A DNA stretch of 36,709 nucleotides, from assembly GCA_017547755.1 (NCBI GenBank), contig JAFYOX010000058.1, forward strand, positions 1-36,709, in the 5' to 3' direction. Shown piece after piece: positions 1,112 through 19,701 of the stretch. Under the pieces are notes generated by a model that worked only from the letters and a program-made list of their open reading frames with translations, searched no databases and was not told the DNA's origin. Source of the stretch: Clostridia bacterium. GTDB lineage: Bacteria; Bacillota; Clostridia; Oscillospirales; CAG-272. The stretch's first letter is position 1; each line of letters starts with the position of its first letter. The translations under genes were made by a program, and so were the position numbers.

Positions 1112-3538
1112 TCACTGTGCTTCCACTACGACAGCGTCGTTATCGACACGAACAGAAATGGAAGAAATGGGAGACTCAAAGGAGTCGATGATCTTCTCGC
1201 TAATGGGGTCCTCCAGCTTCTGCTGGATGGTGCGGCGCAGATTTCTCGCGCCATAGGTCACGGAGTAGGCTTCCTTCACAAGAAGCTGGCGGACGTCTTC
1301 GGTCCAGGTCAGCTCCAGGCCACGGGCCGTCAGGCTCTCCTTCAGCTCGGACAGCATGATGTCTGCGATGCCCAGGAAGTTCTCCTCGGACAGGTGGTTG
1401 AAGGTGATGATCTCATCCACACGGTTGATGAACTCAGGACGCAGGAATTCCCGCAGGGCGCCCATGGTCTTCTCCCTGGTGCGGTCCACGTCGGAGCGTC
1501 CAAAGCCCAGGCCCCCTACCCTGCCCTCAGAGCCTGCGTTGGAGGTCATGACGATGATGGTGTTCTCGAAATTGACCTGACGGCCCTGAGCGTCGGTGAT
1601 GCGGCCGTCGTCGAGGACCTGCAGCAGGATGTTCAGAACATCGGGGTGGGCCTTTTCGATCTCGTCGAAGAGAACGACGGAATACGGGCGGCGGCGGATC
1701 TTTTCGGTGAGCTGACCGCCTTCGTCGTAGCCGACATAGCCCGGAGGCGAGCCGATCAGCTTCGATACGCTGTGCTTTTCCATATATTCGGACATATCCA
1801 CGCGGATCATGACGTTTTCATCGCCGAACATGGTGTCCGCGAGTACTTTCGACAGTTCCGTCTTGCCCACGCCGGTCGGACCGAGGAAGATGAACGAACC
1901 GGTCGGACGCTTGGGATCCTTGAGTCCCATCCGGCCGCGGCGGATCGCACGTGCCACGGCATCGACCGCTTCGTCCTGACCGATCACGCGTTCGCGCAGG
2001 ATCGCGTCGAGCTTCATCAGGCGTTCGCCTTCTTCTTCAGCCAGTTTCTTCACGGGGATTCCCGTCCAGGAGGTCACGATATCCGCGATATCGCCTGCAT
2101 CGACGATCATTTCGCCGGAGCTTCCGGGCGCCGCCGCATTTTTTCTGGATTCCAGTTCTTCGGCAAGCCGTTTTTCTTCGTCGCGCAGACGTGCCGCACC
2201 TTCGTAATCCTCGCCGAGGATGGCTTCTTCCTTTTCGGCGGTGACCTTCTTCAGCTTCGCTTCGGTATCGCGCACATCGGCCGGAGGCGTGAAGGAATCG
2301 ATGCGCTTCTTGCTCGCCGCTTCGTCGATGAGGTCGATCGCCTTGTCGGGAAGATAACGGTCGCTGATGTAGCGGACGGACAATTTCACGGCGGCGGCAA
2401 TCGCGTCGTCGGAGATCTTGAGTTTATGGTGTGCCTCGTACTTGTCGCGCAGACCGAGCAGGATCTGTTCCGCTTCTTCCGGAGAAGGTTCGCCGACCAT
2501 GACGGACTGGAACCGGCGTTCGAGTGCGGCATCCTTTTCGATGTGTTTGCGGTATTCGTCGATCGTGGTCGCGCCGATGACCTGCATTTCGCCGCGTGCC
2601 AGCGCGGGCTTGATGATATTCGCGGCATCCACAGCCCCTTCGGCACCGCCGGCGCCGATAATGGTGTGGATCTCGTCAATGAAGAGGATGATGTGCGGAT
2701 TCTGCCGCGCTTCCTCCATGACGTTCTTCATGCGTTCTTCGAATTCGCCGCGGTACTTTGCGCCGGCGATCATCGCGGAAATATCGAGCGTGACGATCAC
2801 CTTGCCGCGGAGAGTATCCGGAACGCTTCCGTCAACGATCCGCTGTGCGAGACCTTCGACAACGGCGGTTTTGCCGACGCCGGGTTCGCCGATCAGACAG
2901 GGATTGTTCTTCGTACGGCGGGAGAGGATCTGGATGACCCGTGCGGTTTCGTTGTCGCGGCCGATGATGGGGTCGATCTTCCCTTCCTTCGCCATTTTGC
3001 AGAGGTTGCGGCCGTACTGCGTGAGCGTCTGTGCGTTCTTCAGACCTTCATCTCCCTTTTTGGCGTTCGCGTTTCCGCCGTTCGTATGTCCCTTTTCATT
3101 CGCTTCCTGTCCGAAATAGGACAGGACATCACGCCGGATATCCGACGCGGACGTGCCCTGTTCGGCGATCATCCGCACGGCAAAGCATTCCTGTTCCTCG
3201 CACATCGCCAGAAGAAGATGCTCCGTTCCGATGTATCCGTGTCCCATGCCGACCGCGATGTTCGCGGACAGCTCGATGATCTTCTTCGTACGCGGTGTAA
3301 TATCCGCCGCCGACAGTTTCGTCGGGTTTCCGATACCGACATTTTCCGCCAGGATCTGTTTCGTCCGGTCATATGTGATCCCGCGTTCGCTCAGTACACG
3401 TTCGGCGATCCCGTCCTTCTCCGAGAGAAGTCCGAGAAGCAGATGTTCGCTTCCCACGCAGGTATGTCCCATTTCCGATGCCGTATGCAGTGCTCTGTTG
3501 AGCGCGTTCTGTGCTTTTCCCGTAAATCCGATATTCAT
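1112..3538 (-). CDS. clpC: ClpC, AAA+ unfoldase subunit of Clp protease
   Basis: ClpC (808 aa) unfolds substrates, including McsB-phosphorylated proteins, and feeds them to ClpP. Domains in order: N-terminal double Clp-N repeat (about 1-150), first AAA+ module with Walker A GEPGVGKT, a UVR-containing middle domain (near [15 protein letters not shown]), and the second AAA+ module with Walker A GPTGVGKT and Walker [10 protein letters not shown], ending in a Clp D2-small domain. Start ATG at 3538 has a strong GGGAGG site. It is the last gene of ctsR-mcsA-mcsB-clpC and follows mcsB after 82 bp. Oddity: from about residue 630 (near position 1650) to the stop, codons change from the local style (TCG, GAA, CTC, CCG) to CTG/GAG/CCC/AGG-rich, matching prs and not the rest of the window. 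The reading frame is intact. The gene call is secure, but its 3' quarter may be foreign or chimeric. Confidence 0.95.
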
Positions 3539-8422: not shown

Positions 8423-8710
8423 TGGCTGAAAACTCCTCTCTTTCCATGGGATTCGGTACAGTATATGCCGGAAATCCGAAGAAGTGCCTCCGTTTTATAC
8501 GCACGTTTTTTCGCTGTTTCGCCGCGACTAAAGCAATGCTTTAGTCGCAAAATATCCATATAAAGGAAACGCACAGCATATTAGATTGGATAATTAAGGA
8601 AATTCCGTCACACGGAATTTCCGAAGAACCGCTGATTCGCCGGATAAACTAAAGCATTGCTTGAATCCGCATGAATTTCACGGAAAAATCAAAATTCAAC
8701 AAATACTTTC
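8423..8710. other. Non-coding divergent spacer with hairpins
   Basis: The whole spacer (8423-8805) holds no gene. It contains a perfect 11-bp inverted repeat GCGACTAAAGC-AAT-GCTTTAGTCGC (8524-8548), a 10-bp stem GGAAATTCCG/CGGAATTTCC with 5-nt loop (8598-8622), and a third, looser element where CGGAT and ATCCG flank a partial echo of the first repeat (CTAAAGCATTGCTT, 8641-8669). None is followed by a T-run, so these are not ordinary terminators. The short palindrome CGTGTACACG lies at 8752-8761. Confidence 0.6.
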
Positions 8711-8739
8711 TTGCAATCCGGTCCGATCTGTGCTATGCT
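8711..8739 (+). promoter_or_regulatory. Promoter of the HTH/repeat gene
   Basis: TTGCAA (8711-8716), 17 bp, TATGCT (8734-8739). The perfect palindrome CGTGTACACG starts 12 bp after the -10, near the expected start of transcription, and is a candidate operator for the encoded XRE-type protein. Confidence 0.6.
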
Positions 8740-8805
8740 GAAATCACGAAACGTGTACACGAACGCCACCCACCTATTCTACAGGACACAGAACGGAGAA
8801 TCACC

Positions 8806-10395
8806 ATGACAGACAGAAGCATCATCGGTCAGAAAATCGCATATCTTCGCAAACTGAAAGGACTCACGCAGGCGGAACTCGCAGAACAGCTCGGCGTCAG
8901 TCCGCAGGCAGTCTCCCAGTGGGAGCGCAGCGAGACCCTGCCCGATATCCTCACACTTCCGCGCCTCGCGGAAATTTTTGAAGAAGGCATCGCCGCCATT
9001 CTCGGCGTGGAAGAACTGAACGCGGAAAAAACTCCCGCAGAAGCCGAAGAAATTCCGGAAGAAGAAACCGGAGAGGAAGAAACGGACGAAGAATATTACG
9101 ACCGTCTCGCGGCGGAAGTGGAAGCAAACGAAGAAGAGTACGACCGTCTTGCAGCCGAAGCCGAAGAAGCGGAAGACGGCCACACCATCACCGTTCCGGA
9201 GATCAGTATCCCGGACATCAATATTCCCGAGATCCCTCTGCCGACCGGCGAAGTCATTCCGGCACAGCATATTCCCGGAAAGACGATCCCTGCACAGGAA
9301 ATCAAAATTCCGCCGGTTCCGCCCGTTCCTCCGGTGCCCCCGGTATCTCCGGTTCCGCACGGAATCGGCAATTGGATCAAGAAGAAGCTCGACCGCTCCA
9401 CTACCCAGATCGACACCTCCGGCTTCACCCTTCCCGTCAGCGAATACGTCATCGACTTCGCCGATCCCGACGAGGAATACGAAATCGCCCTCATCAAGGA
9501 CGGAAAGATCGTCAACCAGTTCAAGGGTTCCCCGAACGAATTCGTCCGCGTAGTCATTAACGGCGATGTGAAATCGGTCCGTTCGTCGATCTCCGTGGAG
9601 GTCAACGGCAATGTCAATGGGAATACCCAGTCCGGCTTCGACACGACCATCCACGGCGAGGTCACCGGCAATCCGCATTCCAACATGAACCTGACCTGCG
9701 GCAATGTCACCGGCGACGCGCACGCCAACATGACCCTCAACTGCGGCGACGTCGGCGGAAATGCGTCCGCGAATATGTCCCTCAACTGCAACAACATCGG
9801 CGGCGATGCCCACGCGAATATGTCCGTCCATGCGGCAGGCACCATCAGCGGAGGCAAGGCAAAAGAAGAATCCCGTGACGATTCCGATGACGAAATCTCC
9901 GTGAACGGCATGAATGTCACGATCAACGGCGATTACGAAGGCGATCTGTCCGCCGCGTGCAGCATCACAGTGTGCGGCGACGTCAACGGCGACATCGATA
10001 CGACGGGAGACGTCCATGTCACGGAAGGTGACATCAACGGCGACGTCGACACCACCGGAAACGTGACCGCAGGCGGCGACATCAACGGCGATGTCGATAC
10101 TACGCAGACCGTCATGGCGGGCGGCGATATCAGCGGCGACGTCGATACGTCGGCGGATGTGAACGTCGGCGGAAGCATCGAAGGCTCGGTCGACACCACG
10201 GGCGACGTCAACGTCGGCGGCGATGTCGGCGGAGATATCAGCACCACGAGCGACGTGGAAGTGGACGGCGATGTCCACGGCAGCATCGACACGACCGGCG
10301 ACGTGACCGTCCACGGCGACGCACACGGCGATATCGAAGCGGAAAAAGTCAAAGTCTACGGTACCGCAGAAAATTACGATCCCGACGAAGACTGA
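8806..10395 (+). CDS. XRE-type HTH protein with C-terminal 16-residue repeat (beta-solenoid-like) array
   Basis: The 529-aa product begins with an XRE/HTH_3 domain (about 8-60: GQKIAYLRKLKGLTQAELAE, VSPQAVSQWERSE). An acidic Glu-rich stretch (about 68-125), a Pro-rich linker (PPVPPVPPVPPVSPVP, near 168-184) and a short globular piece follow. From about residue 249 come repeats: one array with a Cys every 15-16 residues (NLTCGNVTGD, TLNCGDVGGN, SLNCNNIGGD), an acidic linker, then about eight units of the type GDINGDVDTTGNVTAG to the C terminus. The Gly/Asp/Val spacing resembles bactofilin-like or other polymer-forming beta-solenoids; that fold is inference. ATG at 8806 has GGAG before it; a frame extending upstream to 8671 lacks support. 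No signal peptide or membrane segment is visible, so it is probably cytoplasmic. Function unknown. Confidence 0.82.
   Translation: MTDRSIIGQKIAYLRKLKGLTQAELAEQLGVSPQAVSQWERSETLPDILTLPRLAEIFEEGIAAILGVEELNAEKTPAEAEEIPEEETGEEETDEEYYDRLAAEVEANEEEYDRLAAEAEEAEDGHTITVPEISIPDINIPEIPLPTGEVIPAQHIPGKTIPAQEIKIPPVPPVPPVPPVSPVPHGIGNWIKKKLDRSTTQIDTSGFTLPVSEYVIDFADPDEEYEIALIKDGKIVNQFKGSPNEFVRVVINGDVKSVRSSISVEVNGNVNGNTQSGFDTTIHGEVTGNPHSNMNLTCGNVTGDAHANMTLNCGDVGGNASANMSLNCNNIGGDAHANMSVHAAGTISGGKAKEESRDDSDDEISVNGMNVTINGDYEGDLSAACSITVCGDVNGDIDTTGDVHVTEGDINGDVDTTGNVTAGGDINGDVDTTQTVMAGGDISGDVDTSADVNVGGSIEGSVDTTGDVNVGGDVGGDISTTSDVEVDGDVHGSIDTTGDVTVHGDAHGDIEAEKVKVYGTAENYDPDED
9964..10350 (+). repeat. In-frame 48-bp repeat array (16-residue units)
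   Basis: About eight tandem degenerate 48-bp units within the HTH/repeat gene encode GD(V/I)xGD(V/I)DTTxxVxxx. The units are diverged at DNA level while the protein pattern is kept, so this is a selected protein repeat and not a recent slippage product. Confidence 0.75.
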
Positions 10396-10476: not shown

Positions 10477-12468
10477 ATGAATCAGCCATTATACGATTTC
10501 ATCACCGCGCACCGTCAGCGCGAATTCCGGATCGATGCGATTCCCTCTCAGGCGGAACGCTACAAGGCCGAAGGTCTGTCTCCGCGTGCCAGAATGTCCG
10601 ACCGTTTCTGCCGCGTCATGGACGCGGAAGTGCCGCACATCCTGCCGGGACAGAAGATCGTGTTCCTGCGCACTGTTCCCCGTCCGTACGACTGCTTCAC
10701 CGAAGACGAGTGGAACGCTATCCGCAGTCACCACTTCCTCCACGAACAGGGATATCTCTCGAATATCTGCCCGGATCACACGTATCTCATGAAGCGCGGT
10801 CTTCTCGCCGTACGGGAATCCGCCGACGAATACGCGAAGGCCGATATCGACGCGCTTCTCCGTCTCGTCAGCCGTTACCGTGACGAAGCACTCCGCACCG
10901 GACGTGACGACGTTGCGGAAGTTCTCGAAAAAGTACCCGCACAGCCGGCGGAAACCTTCCGCGAGGCTCTGCAGTTCTTCCGCATCATCCACTACGCGCT
11001 CTGGCTCGAAGGCAACTACCACAACACCGTCGGACGTTTCGACAAGTACATGATGCCCTATCTCGAAGCCGACCTCGCGGCGGGACGCCTCACCGAAGAC
11101 GAAGCATACGAACTGCTTCTCGACTTCTTCCTCTCGTTCAACATCGACTCCGATATGTACACCGGTATCCAGCAGGGCGACAACGGTCAGTCCATGATGC
11201 TCGGCGGCACCGACCCGGCAACGGGATCCGAAATTTACAACAAGCTCACCGCGATGTGCCTCCGTGCATCCGGCGAACTCAAGCTCATCGACCCGAAGAT
11301 CAACCTCCGCGTCACGAAAAACACGCCTCTGTGGGTCTATGAAGAAGGCACGAAGCTGACAAAAGTCGGACTCGGTTTCCCACAGTATTCGAACGACGAC
11401 ACGGTCATCCCCGCGCTGATGAAGCTCGGCTACGACAAGGCGGACGCGGAAGACTACACCGTTGCGGCGTGCTGGGAATTCATCATTCCCGGACTCGGCA
11501 TGGAAATTGCGAACATCGGCGCGATGTCGTATCCGCTTGCGGTCGACCGTGCGCTGTCTTCCCTGCCGTCCTGCGCAGACTTTGACGAATTCCGTGCAAA
11601 TGTCGCGGCAGAGATCACCGCGCAGTGCGACGCAATCATGGCGGGCGTGAAGAACATCTGGTTCGTCCCCTCGCCGTTCATGGAACTTCTCTACGGCGGC
11701 AAGCCCGTGACGGAAGGCATGAAATACAACAATTTCGGGATCCACGGCACCGGCGTATCCTGCGCGGCGGACTCTCTCGCGGCGATCAAAACGTACGTCT
11801 TCGACGAAAAGAAGCTGACTGCGGACGAACTTCTCGCGGCAGTAAACGCGGATTTCGAAGGATATGACGAAACGCTCCACCTGCTCCGCAGCGAATCCCC
11901 GAAGCTCGGTACGGAAAACTCCGCCGCGGCCGACGAACAGCTCGTCTGGCTGACGGAAGCGTTCTCCGGCACCCTCGCCGGAAAGACGAACGAACGCGGC
12001 GGCATCTGGCGTGCCGGAACCGGCTCGGCGATGTTCTACCTCTGGCACGCGGACGAAATCGGCGCGTCTCCCGACGGCAGACGGAAGGGCGAACCCTTCG
12101 CGGCGAACTATTCGGCGTCCCTGTTCGCAAAGATCGACAATCCGGTGAACATCGTGAAATCCTTCACCGCGCCCGACCTCGGCAAGGTCATCAACGGCGG
12201 TCCGCTGACCCTCGAATTCGACAGCAGGATCTTCGCTTCCGATGAAAATATGACCAAGGTCGCCTCTCTCGTAAAATATTTCGTTGCCCGCGGCGGTCAT
12301 CAGCTCCAGCTCAATGCCGTCTCCCGTGAGGCACTTCTCGACGCACAGGCACATCCCGAAAAGTACGAACGTCTCATCGTCCGCATCTGGGGATGGAGCG
12401 CCTACTTCGTGGAACTCGACAAAAACTTCCAGGACCACGTCATCCGCCGTCAGGAGTATTCGATCTGA
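10477..12468 (+). CDS. Divergent glycyl radical enzyme (PFL/dehydratase family)
   Basis: This 663-aa protein belongs to the pyruvate formate-lyase/glycerol dehydratase-like glycyl radical superfamily. The thiyl-radical cysteine fits Cys332 in AACWEF, with Glu two residues later (C-x-E as in dehydratase and C-N/C-C lyase subtypes). The C-terminal glycyl loop is RIWGWSAYF with Gly639, in place of the usual RVxGYxA. The protein is shorter than most members (750-850 aa), mainly at the N terminus. AGAAAGGA precedes ATG 10477. No activating enzyme of the PflA type is adjacent; the nearest radical SAM gene of a PFL-activase-like family is at 23009. Substrate unknown. A peptide-type ABC importer follows after 213 bp, behind terminators. 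Confidence 0.85.
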   Translation: MNQPLYDFITAHRQREFRIDAIPSQAERYKAEGLSPRARMSDRFCRVMDAEVPHILPGQKIVFLRTVPRPYDCFTEDEWNAIRSHHFLHEQGYLSNICPDHTYLMKRGLLAVRESADEYAKADIDALLRLVSRYRDEALRTGRDDVAEVLEKVPAQPAETFREALQFFRIIHYALWLEGNYHNTVGRFDKYMMPYLEADLAAGRLTEDEAYELLLDFFLSFNIDSDMYTGIQQGDNGQSMMLGGTDPATGSEIYNKLTAMCLRASGELKLIDPKINLRVTKNTPLWVYEEGTKLTKVGLGFPQYSNDDTVIPALMKLGYDKADAEDYTVAACWEFIIPGLGMEIANIGAMSYPLAVDRALSSLPSCADFDEFRANVAAEITAQCDAIMAGVKNIWFVPSPFMELLYGGKPVTEGMKYNNFGIHGTGVSCAADSLAAIKTYVFDEKKLTADELLAAVNADFEGYDETLHLLRSESPKLGTENSAAADEQLVWLTEAFSGTLAGKTNERGGIWRAGTGSAMFYLWHADEIGASPDGRRKGEPFAANYSASLFAKIDNPVNIVKSFTAPDLGKVINGGPLTLEFDSRIFASDENMTKVASLVKYFVARGGHQLQLNAVSREALLDAQAHPEKYERLIVRIWGWSAYFVELDKNFQDHVIRRQEYSI

Positions 12469-12681: not shown

Positions 12682-14802
12682 ATGAAAAAACTGCTCTCCA
12701 TCCTTCTCGCCGTGCCGCTTCTGCTTCCGTCCTGCGCGAAAGCGGATATCAACGACCGGATCATTCTCGGCAGTTCGACCGAGCTGACCGGGGATTTCCG
12801 CTTTCCCGGTTACGGCGGTGCTTCCGCCGGGGCTGCCGATCAGGACATCGCCGCGCTGACGACGGGCTACGCCGTGATGGAAACCGATCCTTCCGGGGAA
12901 TATGTCTGGAACCAAACGGTCGTAAAAACGCATACCGAAGAGGAGATCCCGCAGTCCGACGGCTCCGTGAACTACCGGATCACGATCGAACTGAACGAAG
13001 GGCTGACCTTTTCCGACGGCACCCCCGTCACGGCGGACAATTATCTCGCGTATCTGCTGGCGTTTTCCACCCCCGTTGCCAGAAGTGCGGGTGCGACCGG
13101 CATGGCAGGTCAGGCATACGCCGGCTACGCGGATTTCTTCAACTACGCCGGAGACGGCGTGAAAATGGATCCGGACGCGCCTGCGTCCCGTGAGTTCACC
13201 GGTCTGCGCCGCCTGTCGGAATCCTCGTTCTCGCTGGAGGTCGACGGTGCGGCGGGATATTATCCCTATTTTTATACGGCGTCCTATGCCGCCGTCACGC
13301 CGTACGATCTCGGACTTCTTCTCGGGGAAGGAGTCACCGTCCGCGACGACGGAAACGGCTGTTATCTCGACGGCGCGTGGTACGAATCGTCTTCCTCAGG
13401 ATCGTCGGAGGCTCTTCTTTTCAAAAAAGCGGAGCATATGAAAAAAGCACGCTACGATACCATGACCTACCCGTATTCCGGTCCGTACACCATCGTTTCG
13501 TGGGACGAAGGGACCCGTGAAGCCGTCCTGAAGAAAAACGACGCTTTTCTCGGCAACTTCGAAGGACAGAAACCGACCATACAGACAGTCGTCTGCACGC
13601 GCATCGTCGCGGAAACGCAGTTCGACCAGCTCACGAGCGGCGCCGTGGACATTCTCTCCGGCATCACCGGCGGCGATGAGACCAAAGCGGCGCTCCGGCT
13701 TGTCGGAAAGGGATTCCGCGAAAATCACTATCTCCGTGCAGGCTACGGAAAGATCCAGTTTGACTGCGATTTCGGACCGACGCTGTTCCCGGAAGTCCGG
13801 CAGGCCGCCGCGACTCTGCTCGACCGATCCGCGTTTGCGGCGGCGTTTACCGGCGGCTACGGAAAAGTGGTCAACGGCCCGTATTCCGAGGAATCGTGGA
13901 TGTACCATGCCGCCGGTGAGGATTTCGAAAAATCCCTGAACCGCTACGACTATTCCGTCTCCGGCGCAAAACAGCTTCTGGAACAGGGCGGATGGGTCTA
14001 CAATTCCCGCGGAGAAGCCTACGAGGAAGGACAGAACGGCATCGACCGCGTCCGCTACAAAAAAGTCACCCGCGAAGAGCTGGAAAGCCTCACCACCGAA
14101 GAAGGAACGGAGGCGACCCTCTCCTACCGCTCCGTCAGCAATACGGACAACATCGTCTACCGGACGGTGGAGATCGACAGCGCGTACTATATTCCGCTGG
14201 TGCTGAACTGGTTCTCCACGGAAAGCAATGCCGTCTCCGATCTGCTGTCCTCCATGCTGATGAACGGTGCGGGAACGGCTGCCTGCGGCATGGTCATCCG
14301 GCAGTCGGCGGGTGATTTCAACGCCATGCTCGGCGAACTCCGGCGCGATCCGTCCTACGGCTACAGCGGAACGATGACCTACAATATGTACAACCTCGCC
14401 ACCGGCTTCACAAGTCCTGTGTACGATTACTCCTTCCAGTGGTCGCACGATCCCGCGTATTCCGGATTTTCCGCCGTCCGCCTGTACGATCCGTACGACC
14501 GGATCTTCTCCTATTTCGCGGAAGACGGCACCCACGAACGCCTGAGCTATGAGGAAGCCGTCCGCCGTTCGGACGGAAAGCTCGGCATGGATTACCTCTC
14601 CATGGCGATGGTGTACGACGCGGATACCGAAGAGGAATACGTCCGCTGGTGGACGGCGTACATCCGGCGATGGAACGAACTTCTGCCGGAAATTCCGCTC
14701 TACTGCAACTATTACTACGACGTTTACAACGAAAAGATCCGGGATTACCGGACGTCTCCCTACTGGGGAGCGGCCGAAGCGATCCTGTACTGCCGCGGAT
14801 GA
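12682..14802 (+). CDS. Peptide/nickel-type ABC transporter substrate-binding lipoprotein
   Basis: This 706-aa protein is an OppA/DppA-type (SBP_bac_5) solute receptor. The N terminus MKKLLSILLAVPLLLPSC is a lipoprotein signal with lipobox LPSC, so the mature protein is tethered by Cys18 to the outer face of the membrane. Family features include YRITIELNEGLTFSDGTPVTADN, the conserved hot spot after the first lobe, and GPYTIVSWDEGTREAVLKKN. It is longer than the usual 520-600 aa. GGAGGAATTTC precedes ATG 12682. It is followed at 22 bp by the permease and ATPase genes; the ligand cannot be inferred from sequence. Confidence 0.9.
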   Translation: MKKLLSILLAVPLLLPSCAKADINDRIILGSSTELTGDFRFPGYGGASAGAADQDIAALTTGYAVMETDPSGEYVWNQTVVKTHTEEEIPQSDGSVNYRITIELNEGLTFSDGTPVTADNYLAYLLAFSTPVARSAGATGMAGQAYAGYADFFNYAGDGVKMDPDAPASREFTGLRRLSESSFSLEVDGAAGYYPYFYTASYAAVTPYDLGLLLGEGVTVRDDGNGCYLDGAWYESSSSGSSEALLFKKAEHMKKARYDTMTYPYSGPYTIVSWDEGTREAVLKKNDAFLGNFEGQKPTIQTVVCTRIVAETQFDQLTSGAVDILSGITGGDETKAALRLVGKGFRENHYLRAGYGKIQFDCDFGPTLFPEVRQAAATLLDRSAFAAAFTGGYGKVVNGPYSEESWMYHAAGEDFEKSLNRYDYSVSGAKQLLEQGGWVYNSRGEAYEEGQNGIDRVRYKKVTREELESLTTEEGTEATLSYRSVSNTDNIVYRTVEIDSAYYIPLVLNWFSTESNAVSDLLSSMLMNGAGTAACGMVIRQSAGDFNAMLGELRRDPSYGYSGTMTYNMYNLATGFTSPVYDYSFQWSHDPAYSGFSAVRLYDPYDRIFSYFAEDGTHERLSYEEAVRRSDGKLGMDYLSMAMVYDADTEEEYVRWWTAYIRRWNELLPEIPLYCNYYYDVYNEKIRDYRTSPYWGAAEAILYCRG

Positions 14803-14823: not shown

Positions 14824-15855
14824 GTGGGAAAATATCTTCTCCGACGGGTCGGCTATATGCTGCTCGTCCTCGTTCTGCTCTCGTTTCTGATGTATCTGAT
14901 CTACAGCATGATCCCCTTTGACCGGGCACGTGCCCTCGCCGAAGAACAGCGCGCCGCCTACAAAAACGATCCGGCGGGCTTCGAAGCCGCCTATCAGAAC
15001 TACCGGCATCAGCTGGGACTTGACCGCAGCGTCGTCTTCCGCTATCTCCGCTGGATCGGGCTCGTCCCCGTTGACGGCGTATACGACGGACTTCTGCAGG
15101 GAAGTCTCGGATGGAGCTTCCGGTACAGCCGTCCGGCCGCCGAAGTCCTCGCACAGCCGCTGCGCAATACGGTGTTTCTCAACCTCTTCTCGACCGTGCT
15201 GTCCCTCGGGATCACGATCCCTCTCGGCATTTTCTGTGCCGTTCACCGCGGAAGCCGACGGGATACCGCCGTCCAGATCGGCACCGTCGTCGGCTACAGC
15301 GTCCCGGGATTCATCGCCGCGATCCTGTTCATCTGCCTGTTCGCGGTCATCCTGCCGGTCTTCCCCGTCAGCGGAATGAAAACGCCCGGCAGCAGCTATA
15401 CCGGTCTGCGGAAATTTTTCGACGAGCTGTATTATATGGCGCTCCCCATTCTCGTGATGACGTTTTCCTCGCTCGGCGGCATGACCCGCTACGTCCGCGC
15501 CGCCATGACGGAAGCCCTCACGATGGACTGCGTCCGCACCGCGCGTGCCAAAGGACTCCGCGAACGCGCCGTCATCTATTCTCACGCATGGCGGAACGCG
15601 CTCATTCCGGTCATCACCCTCGTCATCGGCTGGTTCCTGCGGCTGTTCTCCGGTTCGCTCATGATCGAAAATATCTTCGCCCTGAACGGCATGGGAAAGC
15701 TCTATATCACCTGTCTCAACGCGAATGACTACGAGGTGGTGCTCCTTCTGCAGATGTTCTATGTCACGCTGGCACTGCTCGGCAACCTGCTGATCGACAT
15801 TGCCTACGGGCTTGCCGATCCGCGTGTCCGTGCCGACCGGCCGGAACGGAGGTGA
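14824..15855 (+). CDS. ABC permease, OppB/DppB family
   Basis: This 343-aa inner-membrane permease has the DppB plan: N-terminal GKYLLRRVGYMLLVLVLLS membrane segment, a long extracellular loop, then five more hydrophobic segments with the EAA loop (MTEALTMDCVRTARAKGLRE) that docks on the ATPases, and the terminal motif IENIFALNGMG. The start is GTG at 14824 with GGAAAGGAG about 8 nt before it. It pairs with the next gene's product to form the translocation pore. Confidence 0.92.
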   Translation: MGKYLLRRVGYMLLVLVLLSFLMYLIYSMIPFDRARALAEEQRAAYKNDPAGFEAAYQNYRHQLGLDRSVVFRYLRWIGLVPVDGVYDGLLQGSLGWSFRYSRPAAEVLAQPLRNTVFLNLFSTVLSLGITIPLGIFCAVHRGSRRDTAVQIGTVVGYSVPGFIAAILFICLFAVILPVFPVSGMKTPGSSYTGLRKFFDELYYMALPILVMTFSSLGGMTRYVRAAMTEALTMDCVRTARAKGLRERAVIYSHAWRNALIPVITLVIGWFLRLFSGSLMIENIFALNGMGKLYITCLNANDYEVVLLLQMFYVTLALLGNLLIDIAYGLADPRVRADRPERR

Positions 15856-15860
15856 ACGTC

Positions 15861-17696
15861 ATGGAATCTCTCAGTCCCGGACGTCTTGCACTGCGGCGTT
15901 TTTTCCGCCGTCCCGCCGCGTGCATCGCGCTCGTTCTTCTTTCCGGCATCTTCCTCTTCGTCTTTCTCGGTCCTCTGTTCGACCCGATCGATCTGTCCTA
16001 CGCCGAACCTCTGCACAAAAATCTCAGTCCGTCGTACGATATGCTGCAGATCCCCGACGCGCTTTCCCGAAATATCCGGCAGATCTCGTCCCGTTCTTCA
16101 TTTTCGGTCGGTCTCGATGGTGACGGACGGGTGTACACCTGGGGAAAAACGTATCTCCGGGACATCGGCACCGATCTTTCCGACCTTCCCGAAGAAGTGC
16201 GCGGCCGCCGGATCCTTCACGCCGCCGCAGGGGTCGACCATGCCGCCGCCATCGATGAAAACGGCTATGTCCTCTGCTGGGGCGCCTACGACAACGGACA
16301 GTACGGTCATAACGGAAGCATGCTCGCGGCGGCACGTCCGCAGCCGGAGGAACTGCTTGAACGTCCGCTCGATCCGTCCGGCGTCCGTCAGCTCGTCTGC
16401 GGAAATCAGGTCACCGCGATCCTGATGAACGACGGTACCACGTACCTCTGGGGAAACTACAGCATCGGCGCGGTCAATCTTCCGTCCTTTGAAGGAACAA
16501 AAGATCTTGCAAAGATCGTCTTTCTGCAGTCCCTGATCGCCGGGATCACGACGGACGGCGAATTCGTTTACGGAAGTTCCGGCGTCTTCGAGATCTGCGA
16601 GATCCGTGCCTCCGACGGCACCGTATTCCTCGGAAATCTGCGGGAATATATCGGGGACCGGAAAGTCCTTGACATCGCCGCTTCCATGACGGACGTCTGT
16701 CTCCTTCTGGACGACGGTTCCCTTGTGATCGCCGGAGCATCCGGCGAAGATACCCGCCGTACGCCGGTCATTCCGGACGGCGAAACGGTCGTTGTCCTTT
16801 CGGGAGGCGCACGGCATTACGCCGCACTCACCGATACGGGGCGCATCCTGACCTGGGGAAGCAATGCGCTCGACCAGACGGACATTCCCGCCGGTCTGAC
16901 AGAACCGGGTGCGGCGGACGAGGTGATCTGCGCCGGATTCCAGACCTACGCTGTCAGAAGCGGGACGCTTGCCGGAAAATGGGGCTTCCGCGGATACCTC
17001 ATGGGAAGCGACGAACTCGGACGCGATATTTTCACGCGCGTCATGAACGGCGGACGGATGACCATGACCATCGGCGCGGCCGCCGTCCTGATCTCCGCCG
17101 TCATCGGGATCCTGATCGGCTGCATCTCCGGCTATTCCGGCGGAAAAACCGACTTTTTCCTCATGCGCATGACCGAAATTTTCGCCGCGATCCCGTTTCT
17201 TCCCTTTGCGCTCGTCCTGTCCGCTCTTCTCCGCCGCACGGACGTGAAGGAAGACGTCCGTATTTTCCTCATCATGGTCGTCCTCGGCGTTCTTTCATGG
17301 CCGGGACTGGCGCGTCTCATCCGCGGGCAGGTACTCGCCGAACGCGAAAAGGAATTTGTCCTCGCGGCACAGGCGATGGGAGTTCCCGAACACCGCATTG
17401 CCTTCCGCCACATCCTGCCGAACGTGATCTCCGTCATTCTCGTCTCCCTCACGCTGGATTTCGCGGGATGCATGCTGACGGAAGCGACGCTTTCCTATCT
17501 CGGATTCGGCGTACAGCTTCCTCGTCCGACCTGGGGAAATATGCTCTACGGATGCAACAATTCCATCGTCATCCGGTCGTACTGGTGGCGGTGGGTCTTC
17601 CCGGCGCTGTTTCTGTCCGTGAGCATCCTCGCCATCAACATCCTCGGCGACACCCTGCGCGATATTTTCGACCCGAAATCGGAGGTGGAAAAATAA
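15861..17696 (+). CDS. OppC/DppC-type ABC permease with inserted seven-repeat RCC1-like propeller
   Basis: The 611-aa protein has a normal OppC_N start (RRFFRRPAACIALVLLSG, membrane segment about 19-39), then about 290 extra residues, then a normal DppC core resuming at MGSDELGRDIFTRVMNG (381 onward) with membrane segments, EAA loop (LAAQAMGVPEHRIAFRHILPN) and the end region YLGFGVQLPRPTWGNML. The insert holds seven RCC1-like repeats: SFSVGLDGDGRVYTWG, HAAAIDENGYVLCWG, VTAILMNDGTTYLWG, LIAGITTDGEFVYG, VCLLLDDGSLVIAG, HYAALTDTGRILTWG and FQTYAVRSGTLAGKWG. Seven is the number of blades of an RCC1 propeller. With TM1 leading outward, the propeller should face the cell exterior. Typical DppC is about 300 aa. 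GGAGGTGAAC precedes ATG 15861; GTG at 15852 is a weaker choice. The frame is unbroken across both junctions. Confidence 0.92.
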   Translation: MESLSPGRLALRRFFRRPAACIALVLLSGIFLFVFLGPLFDPIDLSYAEPLHKNLSPSYDMLQIPDALSRNIRQISSRSSFSVGLDGDGRVYTWGKTYLRDIGTDLSDLPEEVRGRRILHAAAGVDHAAAIDENGYVLCWGAYDNGQYGHNGSMLAAARPQPEELLERPLDPSGVRQLVCGNQVTAILMNDGTTYLWGNYSIGAVNLPSFEGTKDLAKIVFLQSLIAGITTDGEFVYGSSGVFEICEIRASDGTVFLGNLREYIGDRKVLDIAASMTDVCLLLDDGSLVIAGASGEDTRRTPVIPDGETVVVLSGGARHYAALTDTGRILTWGSNALDQTDIPAGLTEPGAADEVICAGFQTYAVRSGTLAGKWGFRGYLMGSDELGRDIFTRVMNGGRMTMTIGAAAVLISAVIGILIGCISGYSGGKTDFFLMRMTEIFAAIPFLPFALVLSALLRRTDVKEDVRIFLIMVVLGVLSWPGLARLIRGQVLAEREKEFVLAAQAMGVPEHRIAFRHILPNVISVILVSLTLDFAGCMLTEATLSYLGFGVQLPRPTWGNMLYGCNNSIVIRSYWWRWVFPALFLSVSILAINILGDTLRDIFDPKSEVEK

Positions 17697-18731
17697 ATGT
17701 CCGAAAACGATGATCTTCTCCTGCAGGTGAAAAACCTGCACACGTATTTCCGGACCCGCGCCGGAACCGTGAAAGCGGTGAACGACGTCTCATATGACCT
17801 GTACCGCGGAAAAACGCTCGGCATCGTCGGCGAATCCGGCTCCGGAAAAAGTGTTTCCGCGATGAGCATCCTCCGGCTGACCGACGCAAACGGATACATC
17901 GCCTCCGGAAAGATCCTCTTCTGCGGAAAGGATCTCGTCACCCTGCCCATGCGGGAGATGTACGGCATCCGCGGAAACCGGATCTCCGTGATCTTTCAGG
18001 AGCCGATGACCAGTCTGAATCCGGTCTTCACGATCGGCCGGCAGCTTTCCGAGCCGTTCCTCATCCACCGCGGGATGAAAAAGGAACCGGCACTGCGGGA
18101 AGCGCGCGCCATGCTCGAGGCCGTGCATATCCCGAATCCGGACGCACTTCTCCGGCGGTATCCGCACCAGCTCTCCGGCGGTATGCGCCAGCGGGTCATG
18201 ATCGCCATGGCACTCGCCTGCCGTCCGGATATCCTCATCGCGGACGAACCTACCACCGCGCTCGACGTCACCATACAGGCGCAGATCCTCCGGCTGATGA
18301 ACGATCTTCAGCGGGAAAACGGCACGGCGATCCTCTTTATCACCCACGATCTCGGCGTAATCCGCGAAACGGCGGACGATGTGGTCGTCATGTACTGCGG
18401 ACAGGCGGTGGAACAGGCGCCGGCGAAGCTGATCTTCACGGACTGCGCGTACAGTCATCCGTACACGGAAGGACTGATGAACTCCATCCCGAAGCTGAAC
18501 GACACCCGAAAGCGCCTCGATCCGATCCCTGGCTCCGTTCCGCATCCGCTTGCCCTGCCGGAAGGCTGCAAATTCGCACCGCGATGCCGCTACTGCACGC
18601 AGAAGTGCATCACCGCCGAACCGGAACTTCTTCCGGTGACGCAGAACCAGAAGATCCGCTGTCATTATCCCGAAAAAGCCGCAAGGAGGAGTCCGGAGCA
18701 TGAAAAAATTACTCTCCGTCCGTCATCTTAA
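17697..18731 (+). CDS. ABC transporter ATPase, OppD/DppD family
   Basis: This 344-aa ATPase powers the importer from the cytoplasmic side. Walker A GESGSGKS (about 41-48), Q-loop QEPMTSLNPVFTIG, signature LSGGMRQR, Walker B ILIADEPTTALD and switch His in FITHDLGV are all present. The C-terminal oligopeptide/dipeptide extension with CKFAPRCRYCTQKC carries the cysteines that in OppD/DppD homologues bind an iron-sulphur cluster. GGAGGTG precedes ATG 17697, directly after the permease stop. The end overlaps oppF-like by 32 bp. Confidence 0.93.
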   Translation: MSENDDLLLQVKNLHTYFRTRAGTVKAVNDVSYDLYRGKTLGIVGESGSGKSVSAMSILRLTDANGYIASGKILFCGKDLVTLPMREMYGIRGNRISVIFQEPMTSLNPVFTIGRQLSEPFLIHRGMKKEPALREARAMLEAVHIPNPDALLRRYPHQLSGGMRQRVMIAMALACRPDILIADEPTTALDVTIQAQILRLMNDLQRENGTAILFITHDLGVIRETADDVVVMYCGQAVEQAPAKLIFTDCAYSHPYTEGLMNSIPKLNDTRKRLDPIPGSVPHPLALPEGCKFAPRCRYCTQKCITAEPELLPVTQNQKIRCHYPEKAARRSPEHEKITLRPSS

Positions 18732-19701
18732 GAAATATTTTCCGCTGTCCGGCAATGGGATCTTCCGTAGTAACGTCCGGTTTCTCCGCGCCAACGACGA
18801 TATTTCACTCGATATTTACGCCGGCGAGACCTTCGGTCTGGTCGGCGAATCCGGATGCGGCAAATCGACCTTCGGGCGCGTGATCCTGCAGCTCCTCCCG
18901 CAGACCGCCGGAAGCACGGTCTATTACGGACGCGATGAAAACGGCATCGATCTGTCGAAACTCTCTCCTGCGGAAATGCGTCCTCTGCGGCAGGATCTGC
19001 AGATCATTTTTCAGGACCCGTATTCCTCGCTCAATCCGCGCATGACAGTCGGGCAGATTCTCGAGGAAGGTCCGCTGACACACGGAATGTACCGGCGCGG
19101 CGATCCTGCTCTGCGTGAGCACATTCTCCGCGTGACGGAGGAATGCGGACTGCAGGAATTCATGCTTTCCCGCTATCCGCACCAGTTTTCGGGCGGTCAG
19201 CGGCAGAGGATCAGCATCGCGCGTTCCCTCGCGGTACGTCCGAAATTCATTGTCTGCGACGAGTGCGTCTCGGCGCTGGACGTGTCGATCCAGTCGCAGA
19301 TTCTCAATCTGCTGCAGGATCTGAAAGAGCGGGAACGGCTGACCTATCTCTTCATCTCGCACAATCTTTCCGTCGTACGCTATCTTTCCGACCGGATCGG
19401 CGTGATGTATCTCGGAAAAATGGTCGAAGTCGCCCCGACGGATCTTCTGTTCGCCCATCCCGCGCATCCGTACACCGCCGCCCTGCTGTCCGCCGTACCG
19501 ACCACCGAGCCGGAGTCCGACACCTCGCGGAAAGAGATCCTCAGCGGCGGAAATCTGCCGGATCCCGCCGATCCGCCGGACGGATGTCCGTTCCATCCGC
19601 GCTGTCCGCAGGCGTGTGACCGGTGCCGGCGGGAAAAACCGCTGCTTCTTGAAACCGCTTCCGGACATTTCGCCGCCTGTCACTTCCCGCTTCCGCAGTA
19701 A
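18700..19701 (+). CDS. ABC transporter ATPase, OppF/DppF family
   Basis: This 333-aa partner ATPase has Walker [10 protein letters not shown]-loop [15 protein letters not shown], signature FSGGQRQR, Walker [13 protein letters not shown] and H-loop FISHNLSV. The D-loop/Walker B has CDECVSALD where most homologues have ADEPVSALD; the catalytic Glu is kept. The C-terminal extension [17 protein letters not shown] again has clustered cysteines. GGAGGAG precedes ATG 18700, inside the previous gene, so translation is probably coupled. Last gene of the operon. Confidence 0.93.

Follow-up and report, generated by a model that had tools for sequence, protein, structure and literature searches.

Peptide importers are basic to feeding and to the uptake of peptide signals among the Firmicutes of the gut and rumen. 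M. tuberculosis OppABCD and E. coli DppBCDF/OppBCDF (8z1v, 8z21, 8j5q) are assembled according to the same two-permease, two-ATPase plan as the importer described here. In E. coli DppABCDF, the B subunit carries a periplasmic scoop motif, which enters the DppA cleft and seals its cavity (PMC12136057). A large extracytoplasmic insert in a type I importer permease, like the one considered below, also occurs in MalFGK2, where MalF-P2 contacts the binding protein MalE (PMC3150292). Pneumococcal Ami is likewise a Gram positive oligopeptide importer with large extracellular domains on its permease. AlphaFold-Multimer models predict a clamp on the peptide-binding proteins formed by AmiC ECD1 and ECD2, as well as a contact between the AmiD TM1-TM2 loop and lobe 2 of the peptide-binding protein, and the AmiC domains are named without mention of a propeller in the portions of the paper at hand (PMC11192437).

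BLIP-II, UVR8, and the HERC2 RLD resemble the domain described here in repeat sequence, and none of them is part of a transporter permease. In a paper on RCC1/BLIP-II propellers, a word search of the main text returned no instance of transporter, permease, or transmembrane (PMC9218822). Furthermore, we found no description of an RCC1-bearing permease among the titles and passages listed from the literature searched, which leaves out most subscription papers and all preprints; the one paper that combined all the words looked for deals with polymorphic toxin systems (PMC3482391). Both the importer and the propeller have been described before, and their combination within a single OppC occurs in none of those titles and passages. 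The present study concerns one such protein, encoded within a 36,709-nucleotide stretch of Clostridia DNA (contig JAFYOX010000058.1), hereafter referred to as the window, together with its relatives.

Results

An OppC-type permease interrupted by an RCC1-type region

The window OppC is encoded on the + strand in a single frame (Table 1), which may begin at either a GTG (15852) or an ATG (15861) and is free of stop codons up to its end at 17696; residue numbers given here count from the GTG. Within this frame, an OppC N-terminal transmembrane segment (OppC_N, residues 8-60, Pfam E 8e-9) is followed by an RCC1-type region and then by the BPD_transp_1 core. The combination of OppC_N with this core, in an operon that also encodes a substrate-binding protein (SBP), OppB, OppD, and OppF, identifies the protein as an OppC-type permease of a type I importer. 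The intervening region contains RCC1/BLIP-II repeat sequence that passes the family cut-offs, as RCC1_2 matches the window protein with E 2.9e-18 and 65.5 bits (cut-off 22) and RCC1 with E 9.9e-7 and 29.7 bits (cut-off 21.7). PF25390 also matches with E 1.2e-29, its 104.2 bits falling under its own cut-off of 150.

Table 1. Importer genes of the window and the component parts of its OppC gene
Feature	Position	Strand	Evidence
Lipoprotein SBP, SBP_bac_5, 706 aa, peptide-binding protein	12682..14802	+	Pfam E 6.5e-29; OppA 9p48_A; LLPSC
OppB-type permease, 343 aa, ordinary size	14824..15855	+	BPD_transp_1 E 3.3e-31; Opp4B best NCBIfam match, below cut-off
OppC-type permease with RCC1-type insert, whole gene	15861..17696	+	Open reading frame; Pfam; NCBIfam
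TM1	15915..15971	+	Residues 22-40; hydropathy peak 2.69; K/R 5 before, 1 after; OppC_N 8-60
RCC1/BLIP-II-type seven-unit insert	16050..16985	+	Residues 67-378; Pfam, profile, and repeat model
Junction (L/F)(K/R)GYLxG(T/S)DxLGRD	16986..17048	+	Conserved columns, 70 aligned sequences
BPD_transp_1 permease core	17106..17678	+	Residues 419-609; Pfam E 1.7e-31
OppD ATPase	17697..18731	+	ABC_tran; oligo_HPY
OppF ATPase, without the 97-188-residue insert	18700..19701	+	ABC_tran; oligo_HPY

Repeat units and predicted fold

By eye, seven units can be placed in the window insert, with ends at residues 98, 144, 201, 241, 295, 336, and 378 (spacings of 46, 57, 40, 54, 41, and 42), and the WG signature is absent from units 4 (VYG) and 5 (IAG). 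When scored with a repeat model derived from ten relatives, only four of the window units exceed 3 bits and a fifth reaches -0.2. Among 98 inserts, which include the ten seed loci of the model and the window twice (WIN and L001), seven units were counted in 60, six in 26, five in nine, four in three, and more than seven in none, whereas shuffling the same inserts yielded no units in 97 and a single unit in one. All seven units are visible in the family consensus. Furthermore, a profile built on an alignment of 70 proteins recognizes solved chains of HERC2, UVR8, BLIP-II, and RCC1 with E values from 1e-38 to 1e-25, the best individual matches being HERC2 3kci (1.4e-38), UVR8 6xzm (2.2e-34), and BLIP-II 1jtd_B (2.7e-29). 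The same profile matches solved OppC/DppC chains with E values from 1e-70 to 1e-46, the permease core aligning to 8z21_B OppC (1.3e-70), 8z1v_B DppC (3.4e-58), and 8j5q_C (4.2e-57). Through homology alone, the insert is assigned to the RCC1/BLIP-II fold, and both the seven-unit counts and the matches to solved propeller chains make a closed seven-bladed ring likely.

Topology and junction with the permease

The RCC1-type insert should lie outside the cell, within the OppC TM1-TM2 loop. Five K/R residues precede TM1 and one follows it within residues 44-66, a bias which under the positive-inside rule would place the insert in the extracytoplasmic space. Hydropathy analysis of the window protein revealed no convincing transmembrane helix inside the insert: the maximum within residues 61-380 is 1.44, at residues 275-293, which align as repeat 5, and nothing there is comparable to TM1. 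The next hydropathy peaks occur from residue 407 onward.

The two ends of the insert differ in how they meet the permease. On the N-terminal side there is a linker of approximately 27 residues, while the last unit reaches the conserved pre-TM2 segment GTDxLGRD after about six residues. The mean majority frequency of the junction LKGYL (0.75) is close to that of the core (0.76), with the repeat segments at 0.39-0.59. Solved OppC/DppC chains lack such an insert, as can be judged from their lengths of 291-302 aa and from the matching segment, which starts at chain residue 62-80; by the same token, the RCC1-type insert would replace a short loop.

A first-pass annotation of the window, made from its letters, had already recognized the uninterrupted frame and the extracellular TM1-TM2 loop, and both agree with the data above. 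It had also described an OppC-type permease split by about 290 residues, of which the split is borne out by the Pfam domain order and the length is slightly short, as the insert spans approximately 310 residues. Its seven repeats, each with a DGxxxxWG motif, can be seen at that number in 60 of the 98 family inserts, but the motif claim is too strong for the window itself, given the loss of WG from units 4 and 5 and the four scoring units. The complete closed domain that it suggested, and the part of this domain as a sensing, docking, or substrate-selecting cap, are putative.

Distribution of the insert

In the taxonomic family of the window (196 genomes), 17 genomes, its own included, match across the insert, and in a further 65 the match (E <= 1e-30) starts no earlier than residue 335. 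Thus, 65 of the 82 family genomes with a match encode OppC homologs whose insert region is unmatched. At E <= 1e-75, matches were obtained in 17 of 391 genomes sampled from the class and in 14 of 398 sampled from the phylum, two genomes (G000 and G259) being common to both samples; four of the 14 phylum genomes, with frames of 555-642 aa and a best segment beginning at residue 307-313, are putative carriers. A protein search of the window's own genome at E <= 1 detected only the gene itself and no second copy of the propeller. A scan of a collection of genome contigs confirmed 183 relatives, the best 80 of which all match across the insert and include records titled Hungatella effluvii, Acetivibrio ethanolgignens, Fenollaria timonensis, Gemmiger sp., and Erysipelotrichaceae as well as one Spirochaetales MAG. 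These 80 and the 17 family loci make up a set of 97 loci, some of which are probably one contig entered twice (e.g., L002 and L033, whose contigs are equally long), and clustering at 85% identity leaves 77. All 97 have, in one frame and at the same site, an insert that is 283-344 residues long, which demonstrates constancy of place and size rather than frequency, since the loci were picked by full-length match.

Conservation of the operon and its binding protein

The operon SBP-OppB-OppC-OppD-OppF is conserved with the insert-bearing OppC. In the window, the OppB, OppC, OppD, and OppF genes abut or overlap. Among the 80 best loci of the 183, wherever the contig has room, a same-strand partner is found nearby in 69/70 cases for SBP, 76/77 for OppB, 75/75 for OppD, and 70/70 for OppF. 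The sole OppB miss (L031) is a counting artefact, as its OppB is matched at 2300-3313. The first-pass annotation had pointed to an unusually long binding protein of 706 aa beside the permease, and this protein was recovered as a family 5 SBP. It had further raised both the recurrence of the architecture with the same operon across Clostridia and, as grounds for rejecting its reading, absence of the fusion from related genomes; the former was observed, in Clostridia and beyond, and the fusion is present in the 97 loci.

Read from the sequence, the SBP start at 12682 provides a lipoprotein-type signal with a lipobox-like LLPSC. Its closest solved chain is the OppA 9p48_A (E 2.4e-26, obtained with a longer 767-aa frame). 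OppA 9p48/9p49 shares 35-41% identity over 118-144 residues with the 20 best SBPs of carrier operons, and among 391 class and 398 phylum genomes, no relative of OppA 9p48 exceeded a best identity of 42%.

This SBP type tracks the RCC1-type insert. Using a 136-residue fragment of the OppA 9p48 chain as the query, the SBP type was detected on the same contig as the insert-bearing OppC in 15 of the 17 class-sample carriers (all except G480 and G533) and in 13 of 14 carriers of the phylum sample, where the remaining genome (G882) has its OppC close to the end of a contig. When the SBP hits of the phylum sample are ranked, these 13 carriers take the first 13 places (E <= 2.5e-18), and the next hit (1.3e-14) is in a non-carrier. 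The SBP type is also encoded without the insert: among genomes with an SBP hit, 12 of 27 in the class sample and 31 of 44 in the phylum sample are non-carriers, almost all of their hits being weaker; one class non-carrier (G297) has a strong hit of 8.5e-22. As a separate observation, two genomes have two tandem SBP matches beside one RCC1-type permease gene (G219:C1 near 1157620 and 1160165; G546:C4 near 33338 and 36734).

Transporter class and cargo

Opp4 (App-like) models (NCBIfam NF045476/NF045472/NF045467) are the best NCBIfam matches for the window OppC, OppB, and SBP, all below their cut-offs (Opp4C 297.5 bits vs. 350, Opp4B 226.9 vs. 450, and Opp4A 37.3 vs. 650). Judged by these scores, the importer is nearest to the Opp4/App-type OppBCDF without being an Opp4 member. 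We take the family 5 SBP, OppB/OppC, and OppD/OppF with oligo_HPY to point to an oligopeptide cargo. An M3 peptidase was matched in 21 of 81 sequences (80 carrier loci plus the window), comprising 12 matches near full length at >= 35% identity and nine weak matches at < 25%; that of L034 is PF01432. None is encoded in the window, and two are present elsewhere in its genome. The proximity of M3 oligopeptidase genes to carriers suggests that the cargo is probably peptide.

Origin, selection, and divergence

A permease-core tree of 81 rows (48 carriers and 33 others, 235 columns), computed by a quick method with SH-aLRT only, placed all 48 sampled carriers on one side of a branch with SH-aLRT 99, with a long-branch warning for distant non-carriers. 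The insert state requires one change on this tree, and 0 of 500 shuffles were as low. None of the 81 rows is an insert-less member of the carrier group; these rows were chosen by search, which could miss rare losses. The RCC1-type insert was probably acquired once and then kept.

Close pairs (core identity 90-99.5%) show purifying selection on the insert, with computable dN/dS values of 0.03-0.40 there and 0.01-0.14 in the core, dS being near or past saturation in many of these pairs and a few giving no value. In view of this selection, together with the one-frame recurrence in 97 loci, we reject an assembly join or a pseudogene.

Divergence and co-evolution were compared over 48 rows, after removal of L070 (OppD frame of 243 aa) and L084 (OppD frame of 3 aa). 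The insert diverges about as fast as the SBP (mean identities of 40% and 41%, respectively), with OppB at 57%, the core at 67%, and OppD at 73%. Partial correlations were 0.54 for SBP-OppB, 0.30 for SBP-core, 0.35 for insert-core, and 0.34 for OppB-OppD (p 0.001 in each case). The SBP-insert value (0.19, p 0.02) is similar to that of insert-OppD (0.23, p 0.003), and the weak association between the insert and the SBP is therefore not specific to the SBP. For the other four protein pairs, p was above 0.05.

Discussion

On balance, and with slightly better than even confidence, we favor the propeller as a fixed docking platform or clamp for its cognate lipoprotein SBP. According to this scenario, the propeller would be tied closely to the pre-TM2 segment of OppC, would lean over the pore entrance, and would grip one lobe of the SBP, which would thereby be held in place while its peptide is passed to OppB/OppC. 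Among the considerations that argue for docking are that 1) the insert runs straight into LKGYLxGTDxLGRD, 2) one SBP type pairs with the insert, 3) MalF-P2 and AmiC offer precedents, 4) the insert and the SBP diverge at about equal rates, and 5) the insert has a constant site, a conserved operon, a single carrier branch, and purifying selection. The parallels are partial, as the cargo of MalFGK2 is maltose rather than peptides, the fold and loop of MalF-P2 differ from those of the RCC1-type OppC insert, and AmiC is, we assume, a B-type subunit. Counting against docking, the OppC homologs with an unmatched insert region in 65 of the 82 family genomes indicate that the permease core does not need the insert. 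The occurrence of the SBP type in non-carriers and an SBP-insert correlation no stronger than that of insert-OppD also weigh against it. Furthermore, RCC1-type propellers elsewhere bind very different partners, and the SBP cannot be read as the partner from family membership.

A second possibility, which we regard as unlikely, is that the propeller is a capture module that feeds the importer independent of SBP docking, its extracellular ligand being a peptide, a polymer, or a secreted protein such as a protease. Its solved repeat relatives include the secreted binder BLIP-II and a domain of the receptor kinase ACR4, with HERC2 and UVR8 scoring higher; apart from its structural residues, the insert evolves rapidly, and the M3 oligopeptidase genes are consistent with a peptide cargo. 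However, any ligand site would be hypothetical, and the tight permease junction and the SBP pairing fit docking at least equally well. A related and quite improbable variant is that of a second recognition module, in which a BLIP-II-like propeller would seize a polymer or a protein outside the cell (for instance a protease, or a protein from the host or its diet) and couple its breakdown to peptide import. If this were the case, the permease itself, and not the SBP alone, would choose what is eaten.

It is similarly doubtful that the propeller is a spacer or assembly element, which determines how high the pore stands with respect to the cell wall or connects one transporter with the next or with a different surface protein. 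Long non-RCC1 inserts in the same loop of another OppC group from the same taxonomic family might imply that the site tolerates many solutions, yet even distant members retain the repeat architecture and many fixed residues, and the insert family goes with one SBP type. That the insertion is neutral, or that it arose artefactually through assembly or the joining of two genes, is hardly credible despite the 117 contigs and estimated 74.76% completeness of the window genome and the degeneracy of several window units, as 97 loci contain the insert in one frame, among them records under the names Hungatella effluvii, Acetivibrio ethanolgignens, Fenollaria timonensis, and Gemmiger sp., and dN/dS is < 0.41 in every computable close pair.

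A permease with a built-in propeller would reveal a novel means of holding or selecting the protein that delivers the peptide, and the RCC1-type domain would gain a role in membrane transport. Carriers, many of them gut Firmicutes, are sufficiently widespread, with some under described species names, for the question to be open to direct testing.

Other insertions and neighboring genes

Other OppC proteins from the same taxonomic family also have long TM1-TM2 inserts (L018-L022, L024, L025, L027-L030, and L154; frames of 520-806 aa). No match to the window propeller was found in the L018-L030 inserts, and no Pfam family scored above its cut-off in that of L018. By eye, some of these non-RCC1 inserts resemble tandem small beta units (FxYxGxxYxI). 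Domains seem to be inserted preferentially into the OppC TM1-TM2 loop, as at a hot spot.

A further insertion is found in the ATPase OppF, where 60 of the 71 frames from carrier operons contain 97-188 extra residues between Walker A and the Q-loop, at approximately residue 80 (e.g., L032, L034, L065, L074, L097, and L110, as well as L131-L134). This segment is charged, helical-looking, and, by eye, probably coiled-coil. The 11 OppF frames without it are those of the window, L031, L083, L096, and L100-L106, and OppF proteins beside a non-RCC1 OppC gave an unbroken match in 12 of 12 operons. In the L034 OppF (10818-12329), residues 100-500 align to positions 125-529 of the NCBIfam OppD MMSYN1_0167 model (the best of two stretches), which suggests that the OppF insert may be related to those of the mycoplasma Opp ATPases.

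Immediately upstream of the window importer lies a gene for a pyruvate formate lyase-like glycyl radical enzyme (10477-12468), and positions 8671-10395 encode a protein that combines a helix-turn-helix domain (HTH_3 E 2.8e-14) with bactofilin-type repeats (Bactofilin E 2.8e-17).
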